Below are positions 1 to 32,230 of a DNA stretch of 32,262 nt, piece after piece. The DNA is taken from contig CALCCU010000260.1 of NCBI GenBank assembly GCA_937900515.1, positions 1-32,262 of the forward strand, read 5' to 3'. How positions within the stretch are numbered: position 1 is the stretch's first letter; each line of letters opens with the position of its first letter. Source of the stretch: an uncultured Gammaproteobacteria bacterium. Its GTDB lineage: Bacteria; Pseudomonadota; Gammaproteobacteria; Nitrosococcales; Methylophagaceae. A program made the translations under genes and the position numbers. The notes under the pieces are model-generated. The model saw only the letters and a list, made by a program, of their open reading frames with translations. It ran no database searches and had not been told where the DNA came from.

Positions 1-3000
1 AGATAATCATTCAAAATACTATATTTAAAGTTTATGATGGCTCAACCCAAGTTATTCTTACAGCCATAATTAATGGTCTTATTTTATTACCCTTTGTACT
101 TTTATTTACCCCTTCTGGCTATCTAGCCGATCGTTTCAACAAACCCAAAATAATGCGTTGGTCAGCACTCCTTGCCGTCGGATTAACACTCTTAATAACA
201 CTTTCATATTATCTAGGCTGGTTCGAGTTCGCATTTGCAATGACATTTATGTTGGCTGTACAAAGCGCTTTTTATTCGCCTGCAAAATATGGCTATATTC
301 GTGAAATTGCAGGAAAAAACAATTTAACATCTGCAAATGGCTTCGTTCAATCGGTCACAATTATCGCAATATTATTAGGCATGTTTATATTTTCGATATT
401 GTTTGAAACAATACTTGCAGATCAAAACTATCAATCTGAAATAGACATTATCAAGCTGATTGCCCCACTAGGTTGGGTATTAGTAGCAGGGTCACTGGTA
501 GAGCTGTATTTTTCTAGTCGCCTACCTTCATTAATCACTCCAGTCCTCAAGGATGCATTCGATTGGAAGCAATACCGAACAGGTCGAGCACTTTCATCTA
601 ACCTAAAACTACTACGTGCTGATGCCGTTATTTGGTTATCAATTGTCGGGTTATCGGTATTCTGGGGAGTATCTCAAGTAGTACTTGCAGCCTTCCCAGC
701 TTTTGCCAAAGAAACTTTATTTATCGACAGCACCATTGTTATTCAAGGTTTACTTGCTTGCTCAGGCATAGGCATAGTTGCAGGATCATTGCTTGCAGGA
801 AAAATTTCTAACCACTACATTGAGTCAGGTCTAATCCCTCTGGGTGCAGTCGGCATGGTGGGGGCACTCTTTCTACTTCCTCAAATTTCATCCGCGCTAT
901 GGCTATCTCTTGATATTCTTGCTTTTGGATTTTTTGGTGGCCTGTTTATTGTTCCACTCAACTCACTTATCCAATTTCATGCCCGTGCCCCACAATTAGG
1001 TACTGTTTTAGCTGGTAATAACTGGGTTCAAAATGTTGTCATGCTGAGCTTTTTGGCAATAACAGTCGCTTTTTCGCTCGCAGACTTTTCAAGCAAACTA
1101 CTACTTGAACTACTGACGATTGTAACTGCTGTAGGTGCTTTCTACACTGTTTGGAAACTACCTCAGTCCTTAGTTCGCTATGCATTAAGGCTACTCTTCT
1201 CAGGTAAATATCGCATTAGTGTACAAGGGTTCGAACATATCCCATCACAAGGTGCGGTGTTGATGTTGGGCAATCATATAAGTTGGTTGGATTGGGCGAT
1301 GATTCAAATAGCTAGCCCCCGCCCAGTTCACTTTGTTATGGATAAAACCATTTATCAAAAGTGGTACCTAAAATGGATTTTAGACTTATTTGGTGTCATC
1401 CCTATCGCTAATAGCAGTAGTAAAGGTGCATTGCAGACTATTAATAAGCATTTACTACAAGGAGAAGTTGTTTGTCTTTTCCCTGAAGGATCAATTAGCC
1501 GTAACGGTCAATTAGATGAGTTCAAAAAAGGCTTTGAGCGTTGTGTAGATAATGTCGATGGCATCATTCTTCCCTTTTATTTACGAGGCCTATGGGGAAG
1601 TCGTTTCTCACGTTCAAGCAGCAAGCTGCAGTCACTACGCCAAAGTAGATTACGTAGAGATGTTATCGTTGCATTTGGTGAAGTAATGCCGATAACTAAG
1701 AAAGCAAACGATGTAAAAAGCGCAATTTTCGAGCTATCAATTAGTACTTGGCAAAGTCATACACAAGAGTTACCAACATTAGGTCATGCATGGATAAGCC
1801 GCGCTAAAGAAAATAGCAATACAACTTGTTTGACTGATATTCAAAGCAATATAAGTCTATCTCGACGTAAAACATTGGTAGCTACCTTACTATTTTCACG
1901 CCGCTTTAAAAAGATATCCCCAGAACAAAATATTGGCTTACTGCTACCTACTAGCAGTGCAGGTATTATCGCCAATATGGCGGCTTTTATTAGTGGTAAA
2001 ACGGTTATAAACCTAAACTTTACCTCTAATGTGAACGCCTTATTGTCTGCGATTGATAAGTCTGAAATACAGACCATTTATACGTCTAAACAGTTCATCA
2101 CCAAATTAAAAGCAAAAGGTGTCGATCTTGCCAGCCTATTCGACAAGACTAAACCTGTGTATCTGGAAGATCTCAAGCAAGAGATATCAAAATCAGAACA
2201 AATATTAACCCTAATTATGAGTTATTTATTACCTGCATCTTGGTTAATTTCACTATTCGGTCATTGTGTAAAAATCACCGATCCCGCAGCTATTCTATTT
2301 TCAAGTGGTAGCGAAGGTGAACCTAAAGGCGTAGTGCTTTCCCATCAGAATATAATGGGTAATATTAAGCAAGTTTCTGACGTGCTAGATAGCGAAGAAC
2401 AAGATGTTATCGTTTCGAGTCTACCTTTATTCCATGCATTTGGATTAACAGTAACAGCTTTAATGCCCTTAATTGAAGGCGTGCCCGCTATTTGCCACCC
2501 TGATCCTACTGATGTACTTAATATCGCTAAAGGGATCCACCAGCATAATGGAACACTATTTTTTGGCACATCCACCTTTCTGAGACTATTTAATAAAAAT
2601 CGTCGCGTTCACCCACTGATGCTGCAATCTTTAAGAATAGTCGTTGCGGGTGCTGAACGTTTAAACCCTGAGATTCGCGATAGCTTTAACCTTAAATTCG
2701 GCAAAACCATCTACGAAGGCTACGGCACAACAGAAACAACCCCTGTCGCGAGCGTTAACTTAATGGACCGAATGGCTAGTGATGACTGGCATATTCAGGT
2801 AGGAAATAAGCCTGGGACAGTAGGACTCCCTTTACCTGGTAGCAGTGTCCGAATCATCGATCCAGAAACACTAGAAACCTTAAAGACAGGAGAAAATGGA
2901 TTAATATTGATCGGTGGAACCCAAGTAATGCAAGGTTATCTAAATGATCCAGTTAAAACAGCCGAAGTTATCTGCGAGCTGGATGGTCATCGTTGGTATA

Positions 3001-3374
3001 AAACGGGTGATAAAGGTCACGTTGATAAAGATGGTTTCTTAGTGATTGTTGACCGCTATTCTCGGTTTGCAAAAATTGGCGGAGAAATGATCAGCCTTGG
3101 CGCCATTGAAGCAAGCATCAATAAAAACTTGCCAGATGATGTTGAAATATTAACAACCACTATTGATGATGATAAAAAAGGTGAAAAAGTAGTATTGCTT
3201 TACACTAATACTATTGATGAATCGACACTAAAATCCTGCATAGATACAGCGCAACTGAACGCCTTAATGGTCCCTAGCCTGCTTATAGCCGTCGAAGCAG
3301 TTCCAAAGCTAGGTAGTGGCAAAAGTGACTTCAGCACAGCCAAGTCTATCGCTGCAAATTACCGCCAAGCTTAA
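1..3374 (+). CDS. LplT-PlsC-Aas fusion: lysophospholipid transporter / acyltransferase / acyl-ACP synthetase (5' end missing)
   Basis: Inner-membrane lysophospholipid repair protein. The frame is open from the first bases of the window, and residues before the Met at 153 read as transporter sequence (SGYLADRF), so the true start lies upstream. Counting from the Met at 153, residues 1-340 form an MFS domain like LplT, which flips lysophospholipids inward. Residues about 350-545 form a PlsC-type acyltransferase with the H375-x4-D380 motif (NHISWLD) and a FPEGSISR block at 443-450. From about 570 to the end lies an AMP-forming acyl-ACP synthetase with the phosphate loop SSGSEGEPKG near 715, YGTTETTP near 856 and YKTGD near 949. 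In E. coli these activities sit in two proteins, LplT and Aas; fused forms are known. The family assignment is secure. Acyl-chain and lipid preference cannot be read from the sequence. Confidence 0.93.
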   Translation, partial: IIIQNTIFKVYDGSTQVILTAIINGLILLPFVLLFTPSGYLADRFNKPKIMRWSALLAVGLTLLITLSYYLGWFEFAFAMTFMLAVQSAFYSPAKYGYIREIAGKNNLTSANGFVQSVTIIAILLGMFIFSILFETILADQNYQSEIDIIKLIAPLGWVLVAGSLVELYFSSRLPSLITPVLKDAFDWKQYRTGRALSSNLKLLRADAVIWLSIVGLSVFWGVSQVVLAAFPAFAKETLFIDSTIVIQGLLACSGIGIVAGSLLAGKISNHYIESGLIPLGAVGMVGALFLLPQISSALWLSLDILAFGFFGGLFIVPLNSLIQFHARAPQLGTVLAGNNWVQNVVMLSFLAITVAFSLADFSSKLLLELLTIVTAVGAFYTVWKLPQSLVRYALRLLFSGKYRISVQGFEHIPSQGAVLMLGNHISWLDWAMIQIASPRPVHFVMDKTIYQKWYLKWILDLFGVIPIANSSSKGALQTINKHLLQGEVVCLFPEGSISRNGQLDEFKKGFERCVDNVDGIILPFYLRGLWGSRFSRSSSKLQSLRQSRLRRDVIVAFGEVMPITKKANDVKSAIFELSISTWQSHTQELPTLGHAWISRAKENSNTTCLTDIQSNISLSRRKTLVATLLFSRRFKKISPEQNIGLLLPTSSAGIIANMAAFISGKTVINLNFTSNVNALLSAIDKSEIQTIYTSKQFITKLKAKGVDLASLFDKTKPVYLEDLKQEISKSEQILTLIMSYLLPASWLISLFGHCVKITDPAAILFSSGSEGEPKGVVLSHQNIMGNIKQVSDVLDSEEQDVIVSSLPLFHAFGLTVTALMPLIEGVPAICHPDPTDVLNIAKGIHQHNGTLFFGTSTFLRLFNKNRRVHPLMLQSLRIVVAGAERLNPEIRDSFNLKFGKTIYEGYGTTETTPVASVNLMDRMASDDWHIQVGNKPGTVGLPLPGSSVRIIDPETLETLKTGENGLILIGGTQVMQGYLNDPVKTAEVICELDGHRWYKTGDKGHVDKDGFLVIVDRYSRFAKIGGEMISLGAIEASINKNLPDDVEILTTTIDDDKKGEKVVLLYTNTIDESTLKSCIDTAQLNALMVPSLLIAVEAVPKLGSGKSDFSTAKSIAANYRQA

Positions 3375-15561: not shown

Positions 15562-17208
15562 ATGTCTGCTACGAATCGAATTAATCCGCTCCCTCTCCAC
15601 CTCGCCAATCAAATTGCGGCTGGTGAAGTTATTGAACGTCCAGCATCCGTAGTCAAAGAGCTCGTAGAAAATAGTATTGATGCTGGCGCCAATGAGATTT
15701 ACATTGATATTGAAGGTGCAGGCAGTCAGTTAATTCGGGTGCGTGATAATGGTATTGGCATTCATCCCGATGATCTTGCCTTAGCACTGAGCCGTCATGC
15801 CACCAGCAAACTCTATACCAGCGAACAATTAAGCCAGATAGCAAGTCTAGGCTTTCGAGGCGAGGCATTACCGAGTATCACCTCAATCTCTCGACTCACC
15901 ATTAGCTCTCTAAGAAAAGAGCATGACACAGCTTGGAAAATTAAAGGCCAAGACAATAGCATTAGTCCTGCGGCACACCCTCAAGGTACGACGATTGAAG
16001 TACGTGAATTATTTTTTAACCTGCCTGCTAGGCGGCATTTTTTAAGAAGTAATAAAACCGAACAACACCATATTTTAACGACGATTCAACGCTTGGCCCT
16101 GAGTCAGTTTGAAATAGGTTTCCATTGTAAGATTTCAGAGAATCAACAACTCAAACTGCCAGCAGCTCATACTAAATCACAACAGCAACAACGCTTAGCT
16201 AAAATCTGTGGCAAAAGCTTTGTAGAAAACAGTGTGTATCTGCAGCAAGACTACAACGATATAAGTTTGTTTGGCTGGTTAGCGAAGGCAGAAGCTCACC
16301 GCCCTCAAACTGATGTGCAGCATTTTTTCATCAATGGTCGAGTCATCCGTGATCGCGTTATTAGCCATGCTATTCGACAAGCTTTTGGGGATAGTATTCC
16401 AGCAGGACGTCAACCTGCTTACGTACTTTATTTGACCATGCCATTAGAAAGCTTAGATATTAATGTTCACCCCACCAAACATGAAGTACGCTTTCGTGAG
16501 GCTCGTTTAATTCATGGCTTAATCACATCCGCTCTAACAGAAGCACTGTCTGATTCATCAGAAATACAGCAAGCCTCCGAGCCTGTTTTGGAACAACCGA
16601 CACTCATTGCATCTACTATCGCCGAAAACACCATCGACTATAACAAACAAGTAAAAACTACGCATTTGAGTGCCAACTCATCGCCTTTATTTGACAAAAT
16701 AGATGTCCTTTTACATCAGAAATATGCCATAGCTCAATCCTCACAAGGACCTGTTCTCTTAGATTTAATTGCAGCAGAACAACAGCTTCGCCAACAACAA
16801 TTACATGAAGCGATAACGAATCAATCGCTTAGTTCTAGACCGATATTAGTTCCGATAAAGCTAGAACTCTCTTCGCAATTACTCTCCGTCGCTGAAAATA
16901 GGGCTGACATACTTAATAACTATGGTATTGAATTACAACAACAAAATGAACACCTACTAATTAAACGTATTCCCTCATTACTCGCTCAGTCAGATTTAAA
17001 ACAACTGCTCATTGAAATTCTACAATTTTTAAATACATCAACAAATGCTGACCTAAGCGCACTGTTAACTCGGCATATAAAAGCGACATCAATCATTTCG
17101 TTCGATCAAGCTAAGCAGCTGTTATCAGAACTAAATGAATTTAACCTCGACCCTAAATGGTGTGTAAAACTTGATCAACAAAGCTTGGATAGCTTATTCT
17201 CAAGATAA
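15562..17208 (+). CDS. mutL: DNA mismatch repair protein MutL
   Basis: Couples MutS mismatch recognition to downstream strand incision. The N-terminal GHKL ATPase motifs are complete: LVENSIDAGA with the catalytic Glu and magnesium-binding Asn, RDNGIGI, SRHATSKL and LGFRGEALPSI, followed by the transducer domain ending in NVHPTKHEVRFRE. The C-terminal dimerisation domain (about 370-548) has LLDLIAAEQQLRQQQL where endonuclease-type MutL proteins carry DQHAxxE. It therefore appears non-nucleolytic, as in MutH-dependent enterobacterial MutL. At 548 residues it is shorter than the roughly 615 of E. coli, mainly in the linker. It begins 29 bases after amiB. Confidence 0.96.
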   Translation: MSATNRINPLPLHLANQIAAGEVIERPASVVKELVENSIDAGANEIYIDIEGAGSQLIRVRDNGIGIHPDDLALALSRHATSKLYTSEQLSQIASLGFRGEALPSITSISRLTISSLRKEHDTAWKIKGQDNSISPAAHPQGTTIEVRELFFNLPARRHFLRSNKTEQHHILTTIQRLALSQFEIGFHCKISENQQLKLPAAHTKSQQQQRLAKICGKSFVENSVYLQQDYNDISLFGWLAKAEAHRPQTDVQHFFINGRVIRDRVISHAIRQAFGDSIPAGRQPAYVLYLTMPLESLDINVHPTKHEVRFREARLIHGLITSALTEALSDSSEIQQASEPVLEQPTLIASTIAENTIDYNKQVKTTHLSANSSPLFDKIDVLLHQKYAIAQSSQGPVLLDLIAAEQQLRQQQLHEAITNQSLSSRPILVPIKLELSSQLLSVAENRADILNNYGIELQQQNEHLLIKRIPSLLAQSDLKQLLIEILQFLNTSTNADLSALLTRHIKATSIISFDQAKQLLSELNEFNLDPKWCVKLDQQSLDSLFSR

Positions 17209-17230
17209 ACACACTAACGGATTAAGTTTT

Positions 17231-18346
17231 ATGGCTAAGTCAGCATCAGCTCCATCGCTCATACCGGCATTCCTCGCCTTACTCATAATTATCTTATTTG
17301 GTTATTTAATTTACAGCGATCTAGAAGCTTCACGCACCGAGCATATGCTGCCACCAATTGAAATACTTGATCCTCCTGATGATTTACCATTAACGATAAT
17401 TGAAGAACAATCAGAAGTTAGTAGCAGTGATGAAGTCATCCAGCAAGAAGCTGAACTATTTGTTGAGCAATTAAGCCCTGTAATCGAATCAACCATTGCC
17501 ATTAAAGAAGGCAGAGATCAATTTGTACGCTACAGTAATATGCTAAATTTACCGAAAATTGAGCAGCGAAAAACAACGATCGCTGAACTACTTGCCGATC
17601 CTAACCTGACTGCTGAGATGCCTATTACTCTGGACTTCGACACCGAGAAGCATACCAGTACCACACTGGCCGAACTTCAAAACAGCCTTGAAGACCACAC
17701 AGCAACTATCACCATCATTTCAATAGATGGTCAAACGATCAGTCAGCCACTTATAGATATTATTAATCAATATCCATTGGGCCTAAATGATGAGATCACA
17801 CTCGTAGAAACACAGCATCATCATATTGAAACGACCGTTGCTGAGCTCAATGAACTCAACATTGATCCCCAACAAACATTGCTAGCAAGTATCACCCTAG
17901 GCGTTCGTAATTTTGCTGTAAGCGATCTGATTAGTGACAATGAAAACAATGGAGGGCTCTATTATGTTCACCGTGTTACCGAGCAAGATCAACAGGGACT
18001 GTGGGGAATTATCCAAACAGGGTTAATCGACAAGTTCAGGCATGGCTTACGTATCGATGGTGTCCTTCATAATAAAGAACTCGCTCAAGCAGTTATTCCT
18101 GCTGATGCCGATGAGAAACTCGCTTCTGGTATGAGCTCCTTTCTAGGTAAAATTCTCGATAGTAAAGTCGATCACAGCTACATATATAACTTTCATACAA
18201 AAAGCATGGGGCGTAATGCCAATCTTATCCACCCGGGCCAGCAGGTCATCTTAATTGAATTTTCTGCAGCTGAACTGGCTGATATTTATCAATTCTTTTC
18301 AGATAATCGTAATCAAGGCATTGAAAGCTTTGCTATCACAGACTAA
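17231..18346 (+). CDS. unrecognised membrane-anchored protein with three internal repeats and a LysM-like C-terminus
   Basis: I do not recognise a named family. The 371-residue product starts at the ATG 22 bases after mutL; a longer frame from 17171 would overlap mutL and is disfavoured. One membrane helix lies at residues 8-28, with Lys4 as its only preceding charge, then an acidic linker (40-80). A motif T-T-[ILV]-A-E-L recurs at 115-120, 144-149 and 201-206, each followed by a beta-like hydrophobic stretch, which suggests three copies of one small module. The C-terminus has GLWGI at 256-260 and NLIHPGQQVIL at 331-341. These echo the start and end of LysM domains but are about 75 residues apart, so any LysM would carry a large insert. 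The downstream small reading frame overlaps its stop. Location after amiB/mutL makes an envelope role possible but unproven. Confidence 0.8.
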   Translation: MAKSASAPSLIPAFLALLIIILFGYLIYSDLEASRTEHMLPPIEILDPPDDLPLTIIEEQSEVSSSDEVIQQEAELFVEQLSPVIESTIAIKEGRDQFVRYSNMLNLPKIEQRKTTIAELLADPNLTAEMPITLDFDTEKHTSTTLAELQNSLEDHTATITIISIDGQTISQPLIDIINQYPLGLNDEITLVETQHHHIETTVAELNELNIDPQQTLLASITLGVRNFAVSDLISDNENNGGLYYVHRVTEQDQQGLWGIIQTGLIDKFRHGLRIDGVLHNKELAQAVIPADADEKLASGMSSFLGKILDSKVDHSYIYNFHTKSMGRNANLIHPGQQVILIEFSAAELADIYQFFSDNRNQGIESFAITD

Positions 18347-18429
18347 TGCTTGATTTACTCTTACTTGTTTTCGTCTTAGTCATTATTGCTGCGGCATTTA
18401 TTGTCGCAAACCAGAGTGACGACAAATAA
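18346..18429 (+). CDS. 27-residue membrane miniprotein, translationally coupled
   Basis: The ATG overlaps the TAA of the preceding gene (TAATG), the classic arrangement for translation re-initiation. The product is 27 residues: a single hydrophobic helix (residues 2-21, Leu/Val/Ile/Ala-rich) followed by a polar tail ANQSDDK. It ends 6 bases before the RND pump stop on the other strand. Short length makes chance possible, but the overlap, helix and polar tail all fit a real small membrane protein. No function can be assigned. Confidence 0.5.
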   Translation: MLDLLLLVFVLVIIAAAFIVANQSDDK

Positions 18430-18435
18430 CGCCTT

Positions 18436-21400
18436 TTATTTAGAAAACCGACCGTAACGCAGCATAATACTAGGTAACACGAGCAAATTCAGAACAGTTG
18501 ATGATATTAAGCCCCCGATGATAATACTCGCCATGGGCCCCATCACTTCTCGGCCTGGACTATCAGAATTCATTGCAATCGGTAACATCGCTAACGCCGT
18601 CACCAAGGCAGTAATCAATATAGATGGTAACCGTTCTTTAGCACCACGGATCGCTGTTTCAGCATTCCACGGTAAGCCCTCTTCAACCACCAAATATTGG
18701 AAATGAGACACCAACATAATAGAGTTTCTTAACGTAATACCAAACAAAGTAATAAACCCCACTAAAGAACCAATCGACAACACACCGTTAGTTAATAGCA
18801 CTGCAATCACCCCTCCCACTAGTGAGAATGGTAAGTTGACTAAAACTAAAGCCATATTACGTACGCTGTTCAACGCGATATAAAGCAATAACAATACAGC
18901 TACACCGGCTAAGCTCGAATGCACAATTAAGTCTTCACGAGACTGCGCCTGTGCCACTGCCGCACCTGTAAATTCTGGATAGATATCAGCAGTAAATGAC
19001 ACCTCATCATGTACACGCTCTTTTAACTCGGCAAAGAATGACGTTAAATCTCGGCCCGTTACATTACAAGTCACCGTCTGCAATCGTTGTGCACCTGCAT
19101 GCAAAATCATATAACGACCAGAGATTTGCTGGATATCAGCAATATCTTGCAACCTTAGCAAAACGCCCGAGGGTGTTTTAATCGGTAAATTACGGACATC
19201 GGCAGGCTGTTGTCTTTGATCTTCTGGCAAGACCACCACCACATCAAACACACGGTTAGCCTCTTGCACTTGACCAACCACAGTGCCTTCAAAGCCTGTT
19301 TGCACCGTTTCCATAACTTGAACAGGTGTCAGTCCCCAATAAGCGAGTTGATCAAGCTTTAGCCGTATTTCTAATTGAGGCTCACCGGGAGGTGCGCGAA
19401 GCTGCACATCTGTTGCCCCTTCTATATCACGCATGACATTAGCAACTTCTTGTGCTTTTTGATCAAGTTCTAATAAATTTTTACCATAAATATTGACTAC
19501 CACTGGCGAGGTATAACCTGAAATGGTCTCGTCAATACGTTCTGTCAGAAAGGTATTAACCTCTGAATTAATCCCTGGGAATGACTCTAAAACTTCACGG
19601 ATTTCATCCAGAATTGCTTGCTGTTCAGGGCCATCCATCGGCTCTAAATCAACTTCATACTCACTGTAGTGCGTACCAAAGGTATCTGCACCCCGTTCTG
19701 CTCGCCCTGCCCATTGAGAAGTCGAACGCACCCCTTCTATTTCGGCAACCCGCTTTTCAAGCTGACCACCTATGCGTAACGACTCGGCAATTGAAGTACC
19801 GGGCACGCTAGCCGTGTGAATAATATAATGCCCCTCTCGTAGCTCAGGTAAAAAACTGCCACCTAATAATGGCAAAATAGCGAGTCCTGCTAAACAGAAA
19901 ACGACTACGCCAGAAAATGTAATTTTCGGAAAACGACTAACTAAGCCGAGGAGCCATTCATAAATAGGATTTAATAATCGTACTAGTGGCGGCTCTTTAT
20001 CGCTTAATTTCCCCCAGCGAGTTAGTAAGATGTGGCATAGAGCAGGCGTAACAGTCAATGCCACGGCCAATGAGGCGAAAATAGCCAAAATATAAGCCTC
20101 ACCTAAGGGTTGGAACATTCGTCCAGCCACACCGCTCAGAGTCAGTAAGGGTACAAATACCAGCATGACGATAAAACTCGCATACACCACTGAACTCCGC
20201 ACTTCCATAGAAGCATCAAAAACAACTGACATCGTCGTTTTTGGTGTCGCTAATGCAGCATTTTCTCGCAACCGCCTGAATATATTCTCAGTATCAATAA
20301 TCGCATCATCAATTACCTCTCCCAGAGCAATGGCTAAGCCACCTAGCACCATAATGTTGATATTCACGCCCATTTCTAGCAATACGATTAAGGCTGCAAA
20401 TAGTGATAAAGGAATGGCTGTAATCGAAATCAGGGCTGTGCGAAGGTTAAATAAAAATAAAACCAACACCAACATAACAAGGCCACCGCCGACCAATAAA
20501 TGTTCACGAATATTATGTAAAGAAGACTCGATATAGTTGGCTGGTCGAAATAAGTCGTCATGTAAGGTAATACCATCAGCTTCAAAACCAGATTTAAACT
20601 CATCAAGCGCCTCTTCAATACCATGTGTTACCGCCAAAGTATTCGCTTTATATTGACCAATCACCATCAAAACCACACCCGGCTTACCTGCGATTGCAGC
20701 CCCCCCTATTGCAGGTGCCGCCCCATCGACAATTGTCGCGACATCACCCAGCAATAAAGTTGCAGCATCTGTTCTTAGCAGCACGACTTTAGCTAACTGC
20801 TCAGCGGTCATTGGTTGCCCAGATACCTGCAACATCATGCGCTGATTACTATTTTCAATATAACCTGTCCCCATCACGCCCGTTGCTTGCTTAGCGGCAT
20901 TAGAGACATCTTCAATCGATAATTTATAACGTGCTAATTTTTCGGTATCGACCTGAATTTGTAACTGCTTTTCTTGTCCACCAAAGACATTAATATCAGC
21001 CACACCTTCTACACTTAATAAGCGTGGCGATAATGTCCAATCAACCAAAGCCCGTAAGGCCATCAAATCATGCTTATCAGAACTCAAACCAATGGTCATA
21101 ATCGTGCCCGATGAAGATTCTAAGGGAACCATTAAAGGTGGGCCGATGTTATTCGGTAAGGCGTTCGATAAACCTAATAGCCGTTCAGACACTAACTGGC
21201 GATCTAAATAAATGTCAGTGCTGTCATAAAAGGTCAAAATAACCACTGACAAACCTGGGATTGATTGGGAACGAATCGACTCGGTTCCTACCAGTCCACC
21301 CAATGCATTTTCAAGTGGCTGAGTGACCAGCACCTCAACCTGTTCGGCAGTTAAACCTTGAGCTTCGGTCTGAATGATGACCTGCTTAGGTGCGAACTCA

Positions 21401-21519
21401 GGGAAAATATCTAAACTAGAACTAGATAACTTATAAATTCCGTAGCCTAAAAGTAATATCGCCAAGGCAACGACAACACCTCGAAACCGAACCGAGAAAG
21501 CAACAACATGAGATAACAT
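18436..21519 (-). CDS. RND efflux pump permease, heavy-metal (CusA/CzcA-like) family
   Basis: A 1027-residue inner-membrane proton-driven exporter with the standard RND layout: helix 1 (about 10-28), a large periplasmic loop, helices 2-6 (about 340-490), a second loop and helices 7-12. The N-terminus (DIFPEFAPKQVIIQTEAQGL, 37-56) and VTQPLENALGGL are typical of the heavy-metal RND branch. The helix-4 proton relay reads ALGEVIDDAIIDTEN, with Asp404/Asp405, a variant of the DFG-x-x-VD motif of CzcA-like pumps. The adaptor gene ends 2 bases upstream, so the two form one operon. No outer-membrane factor or metal regulator lies alongside. The substrate is unknown; a divalent cation is an inference from family and from the acidic adaptor. 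Confidence 0.9.
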   Translation of the reverse strand: MLSHVVAFSVRFRGVVVALAILLLGYGIYKLSSSSLDIFPEFAPKQVIIQTEAQGLTAEQVEVLVTQPLENALGGLVGTESIRSQSIPGLSVVILTFYDSTDIYLDRQLVSERLLGLSNALPNNIGPPLMVPLESSSGTIMTIGLSSDKHDLMALRALVDWTLSPRLLSVEGVADINVFGGQEKQLQIQVDTEKLARYKLSIEDVSNAAKQATGVMGTGYIENSNQRMMLQVSGQPMTAEQLAKVVLLRTDAATLLLGDVATIVDGAAPAIGGAAIAGKPGVVLMVIGQYKANTLAVTHGIEEALDEFKSGFEADGITLHDDLFRPANYIESSLHNIREHLLVGGGLVMLVLVLFLFNLRTALISITAIPLSLFAALIVLLEMGVNINIMVLGGLAIALGEVIDDAIIDTENIFRRLRENAALATPKTTMSVVFDASMEVRSSVVYASFIVMLVFVPLLTLSGVAGRMFQPLGEAYILAIFASLAVALTVTPALCHILLTRWGKLSDKEPPLVRLLNPIYEWLLGLVSRFPKITFSGVVVFCLAGLAILPLLGGSFLPELREGHYIIHTASVPGTSIAESLRIGGQLEKRVAEIEGVRSTSQWAGRAERGADTFGTHYSEYEVDLEPMDGPEQQAILDEIREVLESFPGINSEVNTFLTERIDETISGYTSPVVVNIYGKNLLELDQKAQEVANVMRDIEGATDVQLRAPPGEPQLEIRLKLDQLAYWGLTPVQVMETVQTGFEGTVVGQVQEANRVFDVVVVLPEDQRQQPADVRNLPIKTPSGVLLRLQDIADIQQISGRYMILHAGAQRLQTVTCNVTGRDLTSFFAELKERVHDEVSFTADIYPEFTGAAVAQAQSREDLIVHSSLAGVAVLLLLYIALNSVRNMALVLVNLPFSLVGGVIAVLLTNGVLSIGSLVGFITLFGITLRNSIMLVSHFQYLVVEEGLPWNAETAIRGAKERLPSILITALVTALAMLPIAMNSDSPGREVMGPMASIIIGGLISSTVLNLLVLPSIMLRYGRFSK

Positions 21520-21521
21520 AA

Positions 21522-22622
21522 TTAATCGTCATCCTCATCAGCAATCTGCCATTTAAACTCTTCCGATAACAACATCTGTGCACCATCGATGACCAACGCA
21601 TCGCCCACCACCAGCTCTTGCTGCATAAACACGCCTCCAGCAGTTACTAAGCTGTTTTTCACAGGTTTACGTTGATATAAATTTTCGTCAATTTCAATAT
21701 AGACCCAAGCTTGCCCTTGATGCCAAACAATCGCTTGCTCTGGAATAAAAACACCTTGTAATGGCTCATCACCTTCGGCGATCCAAGCATCTAAACGCAT
21801 ACCCGTACGCAATTTACCTGTTGCGGTTTTGAAGAAATACGTTTCACCTTGAAATAACTTATCCGTCGTTAATGCAGATGAAACATAATAAGATTTACGA
21901 GCGTGATCGCGTTGGCCATCACGAGAGACCCGAATAAAGCTGGTTTCACTGGGCAAGGAATTATCAGCAGCTAAAGTTACCAATAACAAACTATCTTTGT
22001 TTTTCAGCAATCGCTGCCATTCTGTCGAATCATTCTTCAATAGCCAACCAGTAATGGTTTCACCCCATGATTGAACTGCCTCATCATTAATAGCCTGCAA
22101 CTCAATCTGTAAGCCCGCAAGTTTAGCTCTCGCCTCATTCTGGGCGGCTTGAGCATAAACCACTTTTTTACTTGCAATGCTTCCCGTGCTTTTAGCGAGT
22201 AAATTTAATCGACTCAGCTCTTGCTTGGCAGACTGTAAGGCTACGTTTGCAACCCGAACAGCTGAAGCTGTTTGTTGATAGCGTGAACGTAAATTCAACA
22301 TAGGACGTAAATCAACCACTTCAGCATAAGCTTTAAATTCAGGAAAGAAAGTGATCGTCGTCAGCTCATGAAGGGCAATACCAGCATATTCGCTAATCTC
22401 GTCATCAATACGAACCTGCATAAGCGCTACCGCATCAGTACTGTCAGCATCGTCATCATCATCGTCATCCTGCGCATTTTCGATAGCCTGTTCGTATTCC
22501 GTTAGCCATTCCTCAGCAAAATCAAATAACGATGATTTTGACGCAACGGGTATAACAAAAAATAGCGCTAAAGCTAATAAAAAAGCCATTATCCACAAAC
22601 TATATTTTCCACGTAGCGACAT
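21522..22622 (-). CDS. RND efflux periplasmic adaptor with Asp-rich segments
   Basis: The membrane-fusion (adaptor) partner of the pump encoded immediately downstream. It has about 366 residues with an N-terminal membrane anchor or signal (about 8-28). A hairpin-type helical region (about 100-175, rich in Ala, Gln, Leu) and a beta domain follow, ending with a membrane-proximal domain (EQAIVWHQGQAWVYIEI). Two features are unusual: seven consecutive aspartates near residues 52-58, in a stretch rich in Asp/Glu, and an acidic C-terminus, DEDDD. Acidic runs could bind cations, which is inference. The ATG at 22622 has GGA 7 bases upstream and is preferred to the GTG one codon earlier. Confidence 0.87.
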   Translation of the reverse strand: MSLRGKYSLWIMAFLLALALFFVIPVASKSSLFDFAEEWLTEYEQAIENAQDDDDDDDADSTDAVALMQVRIDDEISEYAGIALHELTTITFFPEFKAYAEVVDLRPMLNLRSRYQQTASAVRVANVALQSAKQELSRLNLLAKSTGSIASKKVVYAQAAQNEARAKLAGLQIELQAINDEAVQSWGETITGWLLKNDSTEWQRLLKNKDSLLLVTLAADNSLPSETSFIRVSRDGQRDHARKSYYVSSALTTDKLFQGETYFFKTATGKLRTGMRLDAWIAEGDEPLQGVFIPEQAIVWHQGQAWVYIEIDENLYQRKPVKNSLVTAGGVFMQQELVVGDALVIDGAQMLLSEEFKWQIADEDDD

Positions 22623-22658
22623 CACTGTTCCATATATTAAAGCTAAAATCAGACCGTC

Positions 22659-30612: not shown

Positions 30613-31244
30613 ATGCCAAACCAAGCTGAATTACTGTCAGTGTTCATTGATGCAATTCAAGAAACAATAACGGCTCACGCAGATGAAGTCGCTGAATGGA
30701 TCGTGCTATTGGTGACGGTGATCATGTAGTTAATTTACAACGCGGCTTAGAAGCGCTCAAACAACTTGAAGTTGAGTTAATTTCACTAGAATGGTCAGCT
30801 GCTTTCATGAAAATCGGTATGACTTTAATGTCGACCATGGGCGGTGCATCGGGTTCTTTATTTGGCACCTTATTTGTCAGCATGGCAAAAGCAAGTAAAG
30901 ACACGGATTTGAACTTGGCTAACTTTGCAACGATATTTTCTCAAGGTGTGGAGTCAGTCAAACAGCGCGGAAAGTCAGATATCGGTGAGAAAACCATGTT
31001 GGACACACTTATTCCAGTAGCTAATAGTTTGAATACTGATGCAGAAAATAATCTTAAACTGAGTCAAGCATTAGAAAATGCCAAGCAGCACGCAGTTACA
31101 GGAATGGAATCTACCAAAGATTTATTGGCTACCAAAGGCCGCGCATCGTTTTTGGGAGAGCGTGCAATCGGACATATAGATGCTGGCGCTCGCACAAGCC
31201 AACTAATGATTTGTGCGATTGCCGATAGCTTACTAAAAGCTTAG
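30613..31244 (+). pseudogene. dhaL: dihydroxyacetone kinase subunit DhaL, single-base frameshift
   Basis: DhaL is the nucleotide-binding subunit of dihydroxyacetone kinase. The ATG at 30613 has AAAGGA 7 bases upstream and encodes a DhaL-like start through HADEVAE (to 30696), then runs out of frame to a stop at 30729. The downstream frame, from 30696, continues DRAIGDGDHVVNLQRG, GGASGSLFGTLF and GRASFLGERAIGHIDAGARTS to 31244. Restoring one T at 30696/30697 (GAATGG to GAATTGG) yields AELDRAIGDGDH and a full-length family protein of about 210 residues. The magnesium-binding GDGDH and nucleotide-binding GGASG motifs are intact. The gene is therefore either inactivated recently or carries a sequencing error. 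Re-initiation at 30696 would lose about 28 N-terminal residues. Confidence 0.88.
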
Positions 31245-32230
31245 CAGCCCCAACGTAAATTAGCGGTGTGCACGGGTGAATCCCAGAGTGTTATTAGCTC
31301 TTCATCAAGTAAAGTTAAGGTGATAGATGCGCCCGCCATATCAAGCGATGTGGTGTAGTTACCCACTAATGACCGTGATATAACCACACCCTTCTCTTGC
31401 CAAAACTCTGAAGCCAATTCATACATTAGATAAAGCTCCATTAAAGGCGTCGCTCCAAATCCATTAATATGTAATAACACTTGTTGCCCTGCTTGCGGTT
31501 TAAGCTCCTCATCAATCGCTTTAGTTAAATGGCTGACCATCTCACTCGCACTTGATAAGTCCATAGGTTCACGTCCTCGCTCACCATGGATCCCCACTCC
31601 CATCTCAATTTCATTGTCACCAATATCAAATGTCGGCTGACCCAATGCAGGAACCGTACAGCTGCTTAATGCAACGCCCATCGATGCTGTTGCAGCATTC
31701 ACTCTATCGCCCAAGGCTTTGCATTCAAGTAAACTTGCACCTGCTTCCGCTGCTGCCCCCACTATTTTTTCAACAATAAGTGTTCCCGCTACACCGCGAC
31801 GACCTGTACTATGATCTTTTGGTAGCGACACATCATCATCAATCAATACCGTAGCATGCTCACAGTCAAGCATTTCGGCCGCGATCTCAAAGTTCATCAC
31901 GTCACCAGCATAGTTCTTAACAATAAATAACACGCCCTCACCCTGATTCACTTTGTCGGCCGCAGCCATCATTTGGTCAGGTGTTGGTGATGTAAAGATT
32001 TGCCCTGGGCAAGCGGCATCCAGCATACCTTGTCCCACTAAGCCAGTATGTAAAGGCTCATGTCCTGAACCACCGCCAGAGACTAATGCTACTTTTGCAG
32101 AATTAGATTCTTTGATTCTATATATAAAATGAGGCTGTCGATTAAAAGCAACAATATCACCATGCGCTTTTGAAAAACCAGTAAGACTTTCTTCTAATAG
32201 ACTTTCAACACTATTAATTATTTTCTTCAT
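31241..32230 (-). CDS. dhaK: dihydroxyacetone kinase subunit DhaK
   Basis: Binds dihydroxyacetone covalently through a histidine hemiaminal for phosphorylation to DHAP. The 329-residue protein matches the family: VSGGGSGHEPLH near 50-61, KNYAGDVMNFE near 105-115 and GVGIHGERG near 215-223, containing the substrate-binding His. GGAG 8 bases before the ATG supports the start. It ends on the strand opposite dhaL, and the two stop codons overlap by 3-4 bases, so the subunits cannot share an operon. No DhaM (phosphotransferase) gene is visible, so the phosphoryl donor cannot be told from this window. The gene appears intact; only its partner is broken. Confidence 0.95.
   Translation of the reverse strand: MKKIINSVESLLEESLTGFSKAHGDIVAFNRQPHFIYRIKESNSAKVALVSGGGSGHEPLHTGLVGQGMLDAACPGQIFTSPTPDQMMAAADKVNQGEGVLFIVKNYAGDVMNFEIAAEMLDCEHATVLIDDDVSLPKDHSTGRRGVAGTLIVEKIVGAAAEAGASLLECKALGDRVNAATASMGVALSSCTVPALGQPTFDIGDNEIEMGVGIHGERGREPMDLSSASEMVSHLTKAIDEELKPQAGQQVLLHINGFGATPLMELYLMYELASEFWQEKGVVISRSLVGNYTTSLDMAGASITLTLLDEELITLWDSPVHTANLRWGC

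Follow-up and report, generated by a model that had tools for sequence, protein, structure and literature searches.

Genes as small as the one described here are usually skipped by gene finders. Among known membrane proteins of comparable size, KdpF, of about 29 aa, is a hydrophobic component of a larger assembly, and AcrZ is about 49 aa long. CydX (YbgT/YccB), the small subunit of cytochrome bd, is tied to one form of its partner (PMC4325964) and has 37 aa in E. coli. YohP of E. coli has 27 aa and one helix, which lies mostly with its N terminus out and its C terminus in (PMC7549839). Subunits of the same complex are overrepresented among gene pairs that overlap or are separated by short gaps, and termination-reinitiation is possible at short overlaps but almost abolished by gaps of ~20 nt (PMC10666635).

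We examined a candidate of this kind on a 32,262-nt contig (CALCCU010000260.1, here called the window) from an uncultured gammaproteobacterium of the family Methylophagaceae that is related to marine methylotrophs and whose source assembly (GCA_937900515.1) comprises 2.75 Mb and is 96.8% complete and 3.5% contaminated. The ATG of the miniprotein gene reuses the last A of the TAA closing a 371-codon frame, the product of which is hereafter called the partner (Table 1). No clear Shine–Dalgarno sequence was read by eye in the 20 nt 5′ of the TAATG. The predicted product has a single very hydrophobic segment (best 17-residue Kyte–Doolittle mean, KD17, 3.55) followed by the tail NQSDDK. In a chance model of first-order Markov sequence with window composition (40,000 trials), an overlapping ATG opened an ORF of 20–45 aa in 25% of trials, and one with KD17 ≥ 2.0 in 0.43%.

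Table 1 Features of the gene pair and its neighbors in the window.
Feature	Position	Strand	Details
mutL, fixed upstream neighbor	15562..17208	+	Pfam
Partner gene, 371-aa uncharacterized protein	17231..18346	+	
Partner C-terminal domain, part common to other families of the class	17900..18346	+	
TAATG, 1-nt overlap of partner stop with miniprotein start	18344..18348	+	
27-aa predicted single-helix membrane miniprotein gene	18346..18429	+	product MLDLLLLVFVLVIIAAAFIVANQSDDK, stop TAA
RND pump gene (ACR_tran), convergent; downstream neighbor in most loci but not in all	18436..21519	−	Pfam

Elsewhere in the window, a 1073-aa frame (153–3374, +) combines, by eye, the look of a transporter, an acyltransferase and an AMP-ligase in one protein. 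Two frames that are DhaL-like and DhaK-like by eye (30696–31244, + and 31241–32230, −, respectively) converge with overlapping ends and do not form one operon.

The partner is present in 43 of the 57 family genomes, and 42 of these loci are readable, that of G025 being cut inside the partner gene. Behind the partner stop, a hydrophobic one-helix frame of 23–27 aa is found in all 42. It begins with ATG in 39 loci and with GTG (L005), TTG (L041) and CTG (L010, genome G016) in one each. The CTG stands where the sister locus L013 has ATG, and gives a peptide of 25 aa, or of 22 aa from a later in-frame TTG. The earlier note had named loss of the frame or start codon in close relatives retaining the upstream gene as what would refute its reading; the frame is intact throughout, and 41 of the 42 loci have a standard start, G016 with its CTG being the one departure. 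None of these genomes is a close relative, since full-length homologues of the window partner reach 55% identity at best; a homologue was also found from Methylophaga sp. 41_12_T18.

The junction itself is more variable. Counting from the T of the partner stop codon, the miniprotein start lies at 2 nt (TAATG or TGATG, a −1 overlap) in 25 loci, at 5 nt in eight, at 8 nt in three and at 4 nt in one, while offsets of 17, 18, 35, 36, and 41 nt occur in one locus each. Expressed as distance past the stop, the start is at most 5 nt away in 37 of 42 loci (25 with the −1 overlap, the others at +1 to +5 nt), and a gap of 14–38 nt separates the two genes in the remaining five. Frame and protein are thus kept more strictly than the exact overlap, given 42 of 42 loci for the former and 25 of 42 for the latter. 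The overlap of start and stop and the polar acidic tail had both been offered as hallmarks of a real small membrane protein. The overlap holds for the window and those 25 loci but is not family-wide, and the tail holds for the window and some lineages but not for the whole family, many members ending in PLD, PFD/E or AKKD/ANKD-like motifs.

Codon-based estimates for the miniprotein gave an omega of 0.107 under the MG model (lnL −1862.5 vs −2032.4 at omega 1, ~170 lower) and 0.126 under MGK+F1X4 (lnL −1876.0 vs −2029.1, ~153 lower), on a tree fixed beforehand from the 146 C-terminal codons of the partner and with synonymous sites near saturation (tree length 46.5). Omega for the partner C-terminal domain was 0.074–0.082, and in eleven closer pairs pN/pS was 0.177 for the miniprotein vs 0.107 for the partner domain. 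By these estimates, the miniprotein is under purifying selection at the protein level. The ORF is confirmed as real, and the matter is settled by conservation, because all 42 homologous loci keep the frame with an omega of 0.107–0.126. Together with the single hydrophobic helix predicted from sequence, this supports the view that the gene encodes a real small membrane protein.

Hydrophobic columns 4–20 across 36 distinct peptides suggest, by sequence only, one membrane-spanning helix per miniprotein. All of these peptides share V10 and A17 and have I or V at positions 13 and 14, and D or E occupies position 3 except in two sequences with His (L014 and L020); no glycine is conserved. Conservation follows a helix-like period that is modest (p 0.02 at 100 degrees, and 0.24 with the best angle freely chosen). 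Basic residues occur at the C end only, with none at the N end, a placement that favors an N-out/C-in orientation, although weakly for the group with a proline motif: the 15 peptides without this motif carry 23 C-end basic residues, whereas the 21 with it carry two.

A profile built from 31 miniproteins matched 43 of the 57 family genomes at E ≤ 0.01, namely the 42 described above, 31 of which supplied the profile peptides, and G003 (E 0.001), and it had no matches in the 13 family genomes without the partner or its remains. Among 63 genomes of the order, the 43 matched by the partner profile belong without exception to the family, and none of the six outside it was matched. Among the 13 pair-less genomes, seven have mutL with its 3′ end (L078–L084), followed by tRNA-Phe in every case; in the other six mutL is absent or cut, making them uninformative. 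A MutL tree of the C-terminal part only (35 of the 42 partner-bearing loci, the seven pair-less loci, and three outgroups) places the pair-less loci in one clade (support 0.89) nested among the others, and therefore a single joint loss suffices to account for them.

The neighborhood of the pair is similarly stable. In every locus but L041, which is cut, mutL lies upstream (41 of 42), 12–94 nt before the partner gene in 40 of them, the overlap in L034 reflecting a start called too far upstream. Downstream, a convergent RND gene is present in 36 of the 42 fetched stretches. The other six have tRNA-Phe ~145–835 nt past the partner stop and no RND gene within the fetched stretch; these stretches end 372–1750 nt past the partner stop, and a pump gene may lie in another part of these genomes. 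The miniprotein is kept beside either downstream neighbor. Co-occurrence, shared absence, and a fixed neighborhood all support the earlier suggestion that it may be a partner of the upstream protein.

Two further observations concern these flanking genes. Next to the RND gene of the window, at the place expected of a membrane-fusion subunit, is a frame with an aspartate run (21522–22625, −; best Pfam E 0.79). Just behind mutL in a genome from another family of the order (L087, G062) is a CRISPR-array-like repeat array, in translation a recurring ETPPRAWGR / NTPTGVGKT.

Outside the family the domain and the miniprotein part ways. Of 369 genomes sampled from the class, 16 gave a match to the partner C-terminal domain. 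Two of these are family members that carry the pair, one has a marginal match in an ABC-transporter-like protein (G378, L107), and the remaining 13 are represented by L094–L106. A search with the miniprotein profile, in three frames over up to 400 nt past the true stop, found no miniprotein in these 13 loci (best E 5), 12 of 12 readable ones included; L106 is cut only 2 bases after the stop and was excluded from the readable set. All six positive controls of this search matched (E 8e-6 to 7e-14), five of them being in or like the profile's own sequences. mutL was absent from the fetched stretches of all 13 outside loci, several of which have CBS-domain-, pgi-, and kinase-like neighbors by eye. 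Since the 12 readable outside loci all lack a miniprotein, the partner domain can apparently do without one.

In the same class sample, the miniprotein profile matched two of the 369 genomes at E ≤ 0.001 (G000 and G049, both in the family) and had no match in the pair-less family members G022 and G028; this cut-off would just miss a miniprotein as diverged as that of G003. Within the class sample and the sensitivity of the search, the miniprotein is family-specific; it may have been born there, or it may elsewhere have diverged past recognition.

The partner consists of an N-terminal helix (residues 11–29 in the structure model), an acidic linker, strand-rich repeats, and a conserved C-terminal domain in which 47 of 150 columns are invariant among 13 sequences. 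Five loci (L040, L042, L043, L044, and L045) encode partners of 256–261 aa without the strand-rich middle, with both ends and the miniprotein kept. The structure model, built from three sequences, is poor (mean pLDDT 64.9) and had no PDB match at E ≤ 0.001 with Foldseek. A sequence search of solved structures gave a best E of 0.08 for the partner domain and no match for the miniprotein. The description of the upstream protein as unrecognized agrees with our searches of Pfam, NCBIfam, PHROGs, and PADLOC, which returned no convincing match for it. Weak matches to PhnH (one of 22 members, E 0.0004) and Peptidase_M17 (one of 22, E 0.0052) were set aside as hydrophobic or chance. A LysM assignment of the C-terminal domain, based on a pattern seen by eye (Y.V...D..GLWGI ... 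PGQQL), was also rejected: hhalign against the LysM piece of the window's AmiB gave 0.4% probability, and no LysM was among the Pfam matches of the partner. A SafA/ExsA spore-coat model matched five of 22 members (best E 0.0097) and is a lead only. Guessing from its architecture, with an N-terminal anchor and putatively extracytoplasmic repeats and domain, we consider that the partner probably serves in cell-envelope upkeep.

G003, a reduced family member of 1.1 Mb rated 100% complete, has a broken partner gene and represents a natural experiment (L074:1–2304, L086). Its mutL contains two in-frame stops and a frame change, and behind it ~1,045 nt align with the partner gene (z 5.2 and 8.4 above single-base shuffles against two genus mates) but are broken in all frames. 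The miniprotein frame MIDLILFVLVIIIIAIALLIPLN is whole, behind a TAATG that ends the partner remnant. Its differences from the two genus mates fall at codon positions 1/2/3 as 10/1/15 and 9/2/16, and when the changes were placed at random an equally high identity without a stop arose in 0.38% and 0.43% of cases. Nucleotide identity of the miniprotein gene is 42/69 without gaps, and thus no higher than the 44–46/69 obtained for the final 72 nt of the pseudogene in a gapped alignment; the ungapped identity of the pseudogene end (0.46–0.50) is lower than that of the miniprotein. This conservative pattern may predate the decay of the partner. A fuller scenario, in which the miniprotein was born in or just before this one family, became the fixed companion of an older envelope protein that elsewhere manages alone, and then outlived it in G003, would imply a second, independent role, and we regard it as unlikely.

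Because of the short overlaps and gaps and the strict co-inheritance, a subunit or regulator of the partner is the best reading of the miniprotein. We propose that it is probably a genuine, family-specific accessory single-helix subunit of the upstream envelope protein; its translation, membrane location, contact, and function are what we infer. In most lineages, ribosomes ending the partner gene would reinitiate at the overlapping ATG, such that the miniprotein would be made beside the partner and in proportion to it. It would insert N-out/C-in in the membrane, where its V10/A17 face may pack against the N-terminal helix of the partner, or against another miniprotein, and it could then stabilize or tune the partner as CydX does for cytochrome bd. 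Coupling by reinitiation fits 37 of the 42 loci, on the distances read from sequence, and the five with gaps of 14–38 nt must rely on something else. We count several observations against the subunit reading: the long gaps in five of 42 loci, where weak coupling is expected; the non-standard start in one of 42; the shattered partner and intact miniprotein of G003, an ill fit unless the decay is recent; partner domains outside the family without a miniprotein; and the modest helix periodicity.

Some of these same observations would suit a genuine small membrane protein that acts independently, in lipid or stress processes or as part of a different membrane complex, and has only its operon in common with the partner. 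The intact G003 miniprotein behind a shattered partner, with changes that avoid second codon positions, points this way, as do the five loci with 14–38 nt gaps. However, every miniprotein detected in the 57 family genomes accompanies the partner or what is left of it, and the G003 pattern may be older than the partner decay, the identity of its miniprotein not exceeding that of the gapped pseudogene end. We give an independent role a minority share of our confidence, as the next most likely explanation. Modulation of the neighboring RND pump in the manner of AcrZ, a small single-helix protein that binds such a pump (PMC7267776), is suggested by the convergent RND gene in 36 of 42 loci. Yet this gene is on the opposite strand, and the miniprotein is joined to the partner gene instead; in six of 42 loci tRNA-Phe is present and the fetched sequence contains no RND gene, and the AcrZ model was not among the families matched at E ≤ 1. 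We consider such a modulator improbable.

The size and hydrophobicity of the product are compatible with the toxin component of a type I toxin-antitoxin pair, or with a translated element that leaves no lasting product, and one weak promoter-like match lies on the opposite strand inside the miniprotein gene (18409–18382). Against this, the gene is inherited at one locus where it overlaps another gene, and its amino acids are conserved beyond the mere frame. Promoter-like sites are near chance (six found vs 4.4 expected), the RNA fold is not notable (z 0.46 and −1.35), and there was no Rfam match in 17000–18800, where undescribed RNAs would escape; the toxin explanation is very improbable. RNA-level readings (a structured overlap, an antisense RNA, or a terminator) were rejected on similar results, with folds at about shuffle level, no Rfam match, and promoter and terminator counts near chance. 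A chance ORF draws on the ease with which an overlapping ATG alone yields a 20–45-aa ORF (25% of random cases), but has to contend with conservation in 42 of 42 loci at an omega of ~0.11. Extension of the partner by frameshift or readthrough fares no better: start offsets vary (2, 4, 5, 8, 17, 18, 35, 36, and 41 nt, counted from the T of the stop), so no single frameshift joins the two genes in all loci, and a frameshift fusion was rejected. We accord chance or extension next to no probability.

The miniprotein adds to the very short membrane proteins a sharply delimited family, from a methylotroph group, for which the candidate partner is clear. The partner domain occurs with the miniprotein here and without it in other sampled families, so that nature itself offers a comparison for judging the contribution of a 23-residue helix.

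Searches of known families gave no convincing match for the miniprotein in Pfam, NCBIfam, PHROGs or PADLOC. Family-model cut-offs are given for the first alignment member only, and weak matches to the Ecr small membrane protein (three of 31, best E 0.0041) and CDP-OH_P_tran_2 (E 0.15) were set aside as hydrophobic or chance. The window miniprotein has no match in NCBIfam at E ≤ 10, KdpF (TIGR02115) included; a weak KdpF match is to the partner's own helix, at 11.3 bits far short of the cut-off of 26.85. At E ≤ 1 the 31 miniproteins match 16 Pfam families, none of them CydX/YbgT_YccB, and one of the 31 matches CbdX (E 0.6). The miniprotein thus belongs to no modeled family tested, as far as sequence models reach, and is set apart from YohP by description only. 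None of the open-licence papers listed by topic describes it, none was found under Methylophaga, and the GMSC catalog of small proteins (PMC11364881) may hold the peptide unnamed.

Comparison with the described systems places the miniprotein among familiar company. KdpF resembles it as a small hydrophobic subunit of a larger complex. AcrZ, too, is a short protein with a helix that partners a larger membrane protein, and an RND gene adjoins the miniprotein here; that gene, however, is encoded on the opposite strand and is not adjacent in every locus. YohP matches the length of the window miniprotein and its predicted orientation, but its helix is flanked by two lysines and dimerizes via Gly15 (PMC7549839), whereas the miniprotein has D/E3, V10, and A17 and no conserved glycine. 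CydX is likewise a tiny one-helix protein encoded behind the genes of its partner (PMC4325964). It differs in having a family model and a known enzyme, and no cydAB lies beside the miniprotein, which has the partner gene and mutL upstream. By analogy, CydX is the nearest counterpart in manner and YohP the nearest in size and topology. Within the scope of these searches, the miniprotein represents a new family of an ordinary kind, in the company of CydX and YohP.
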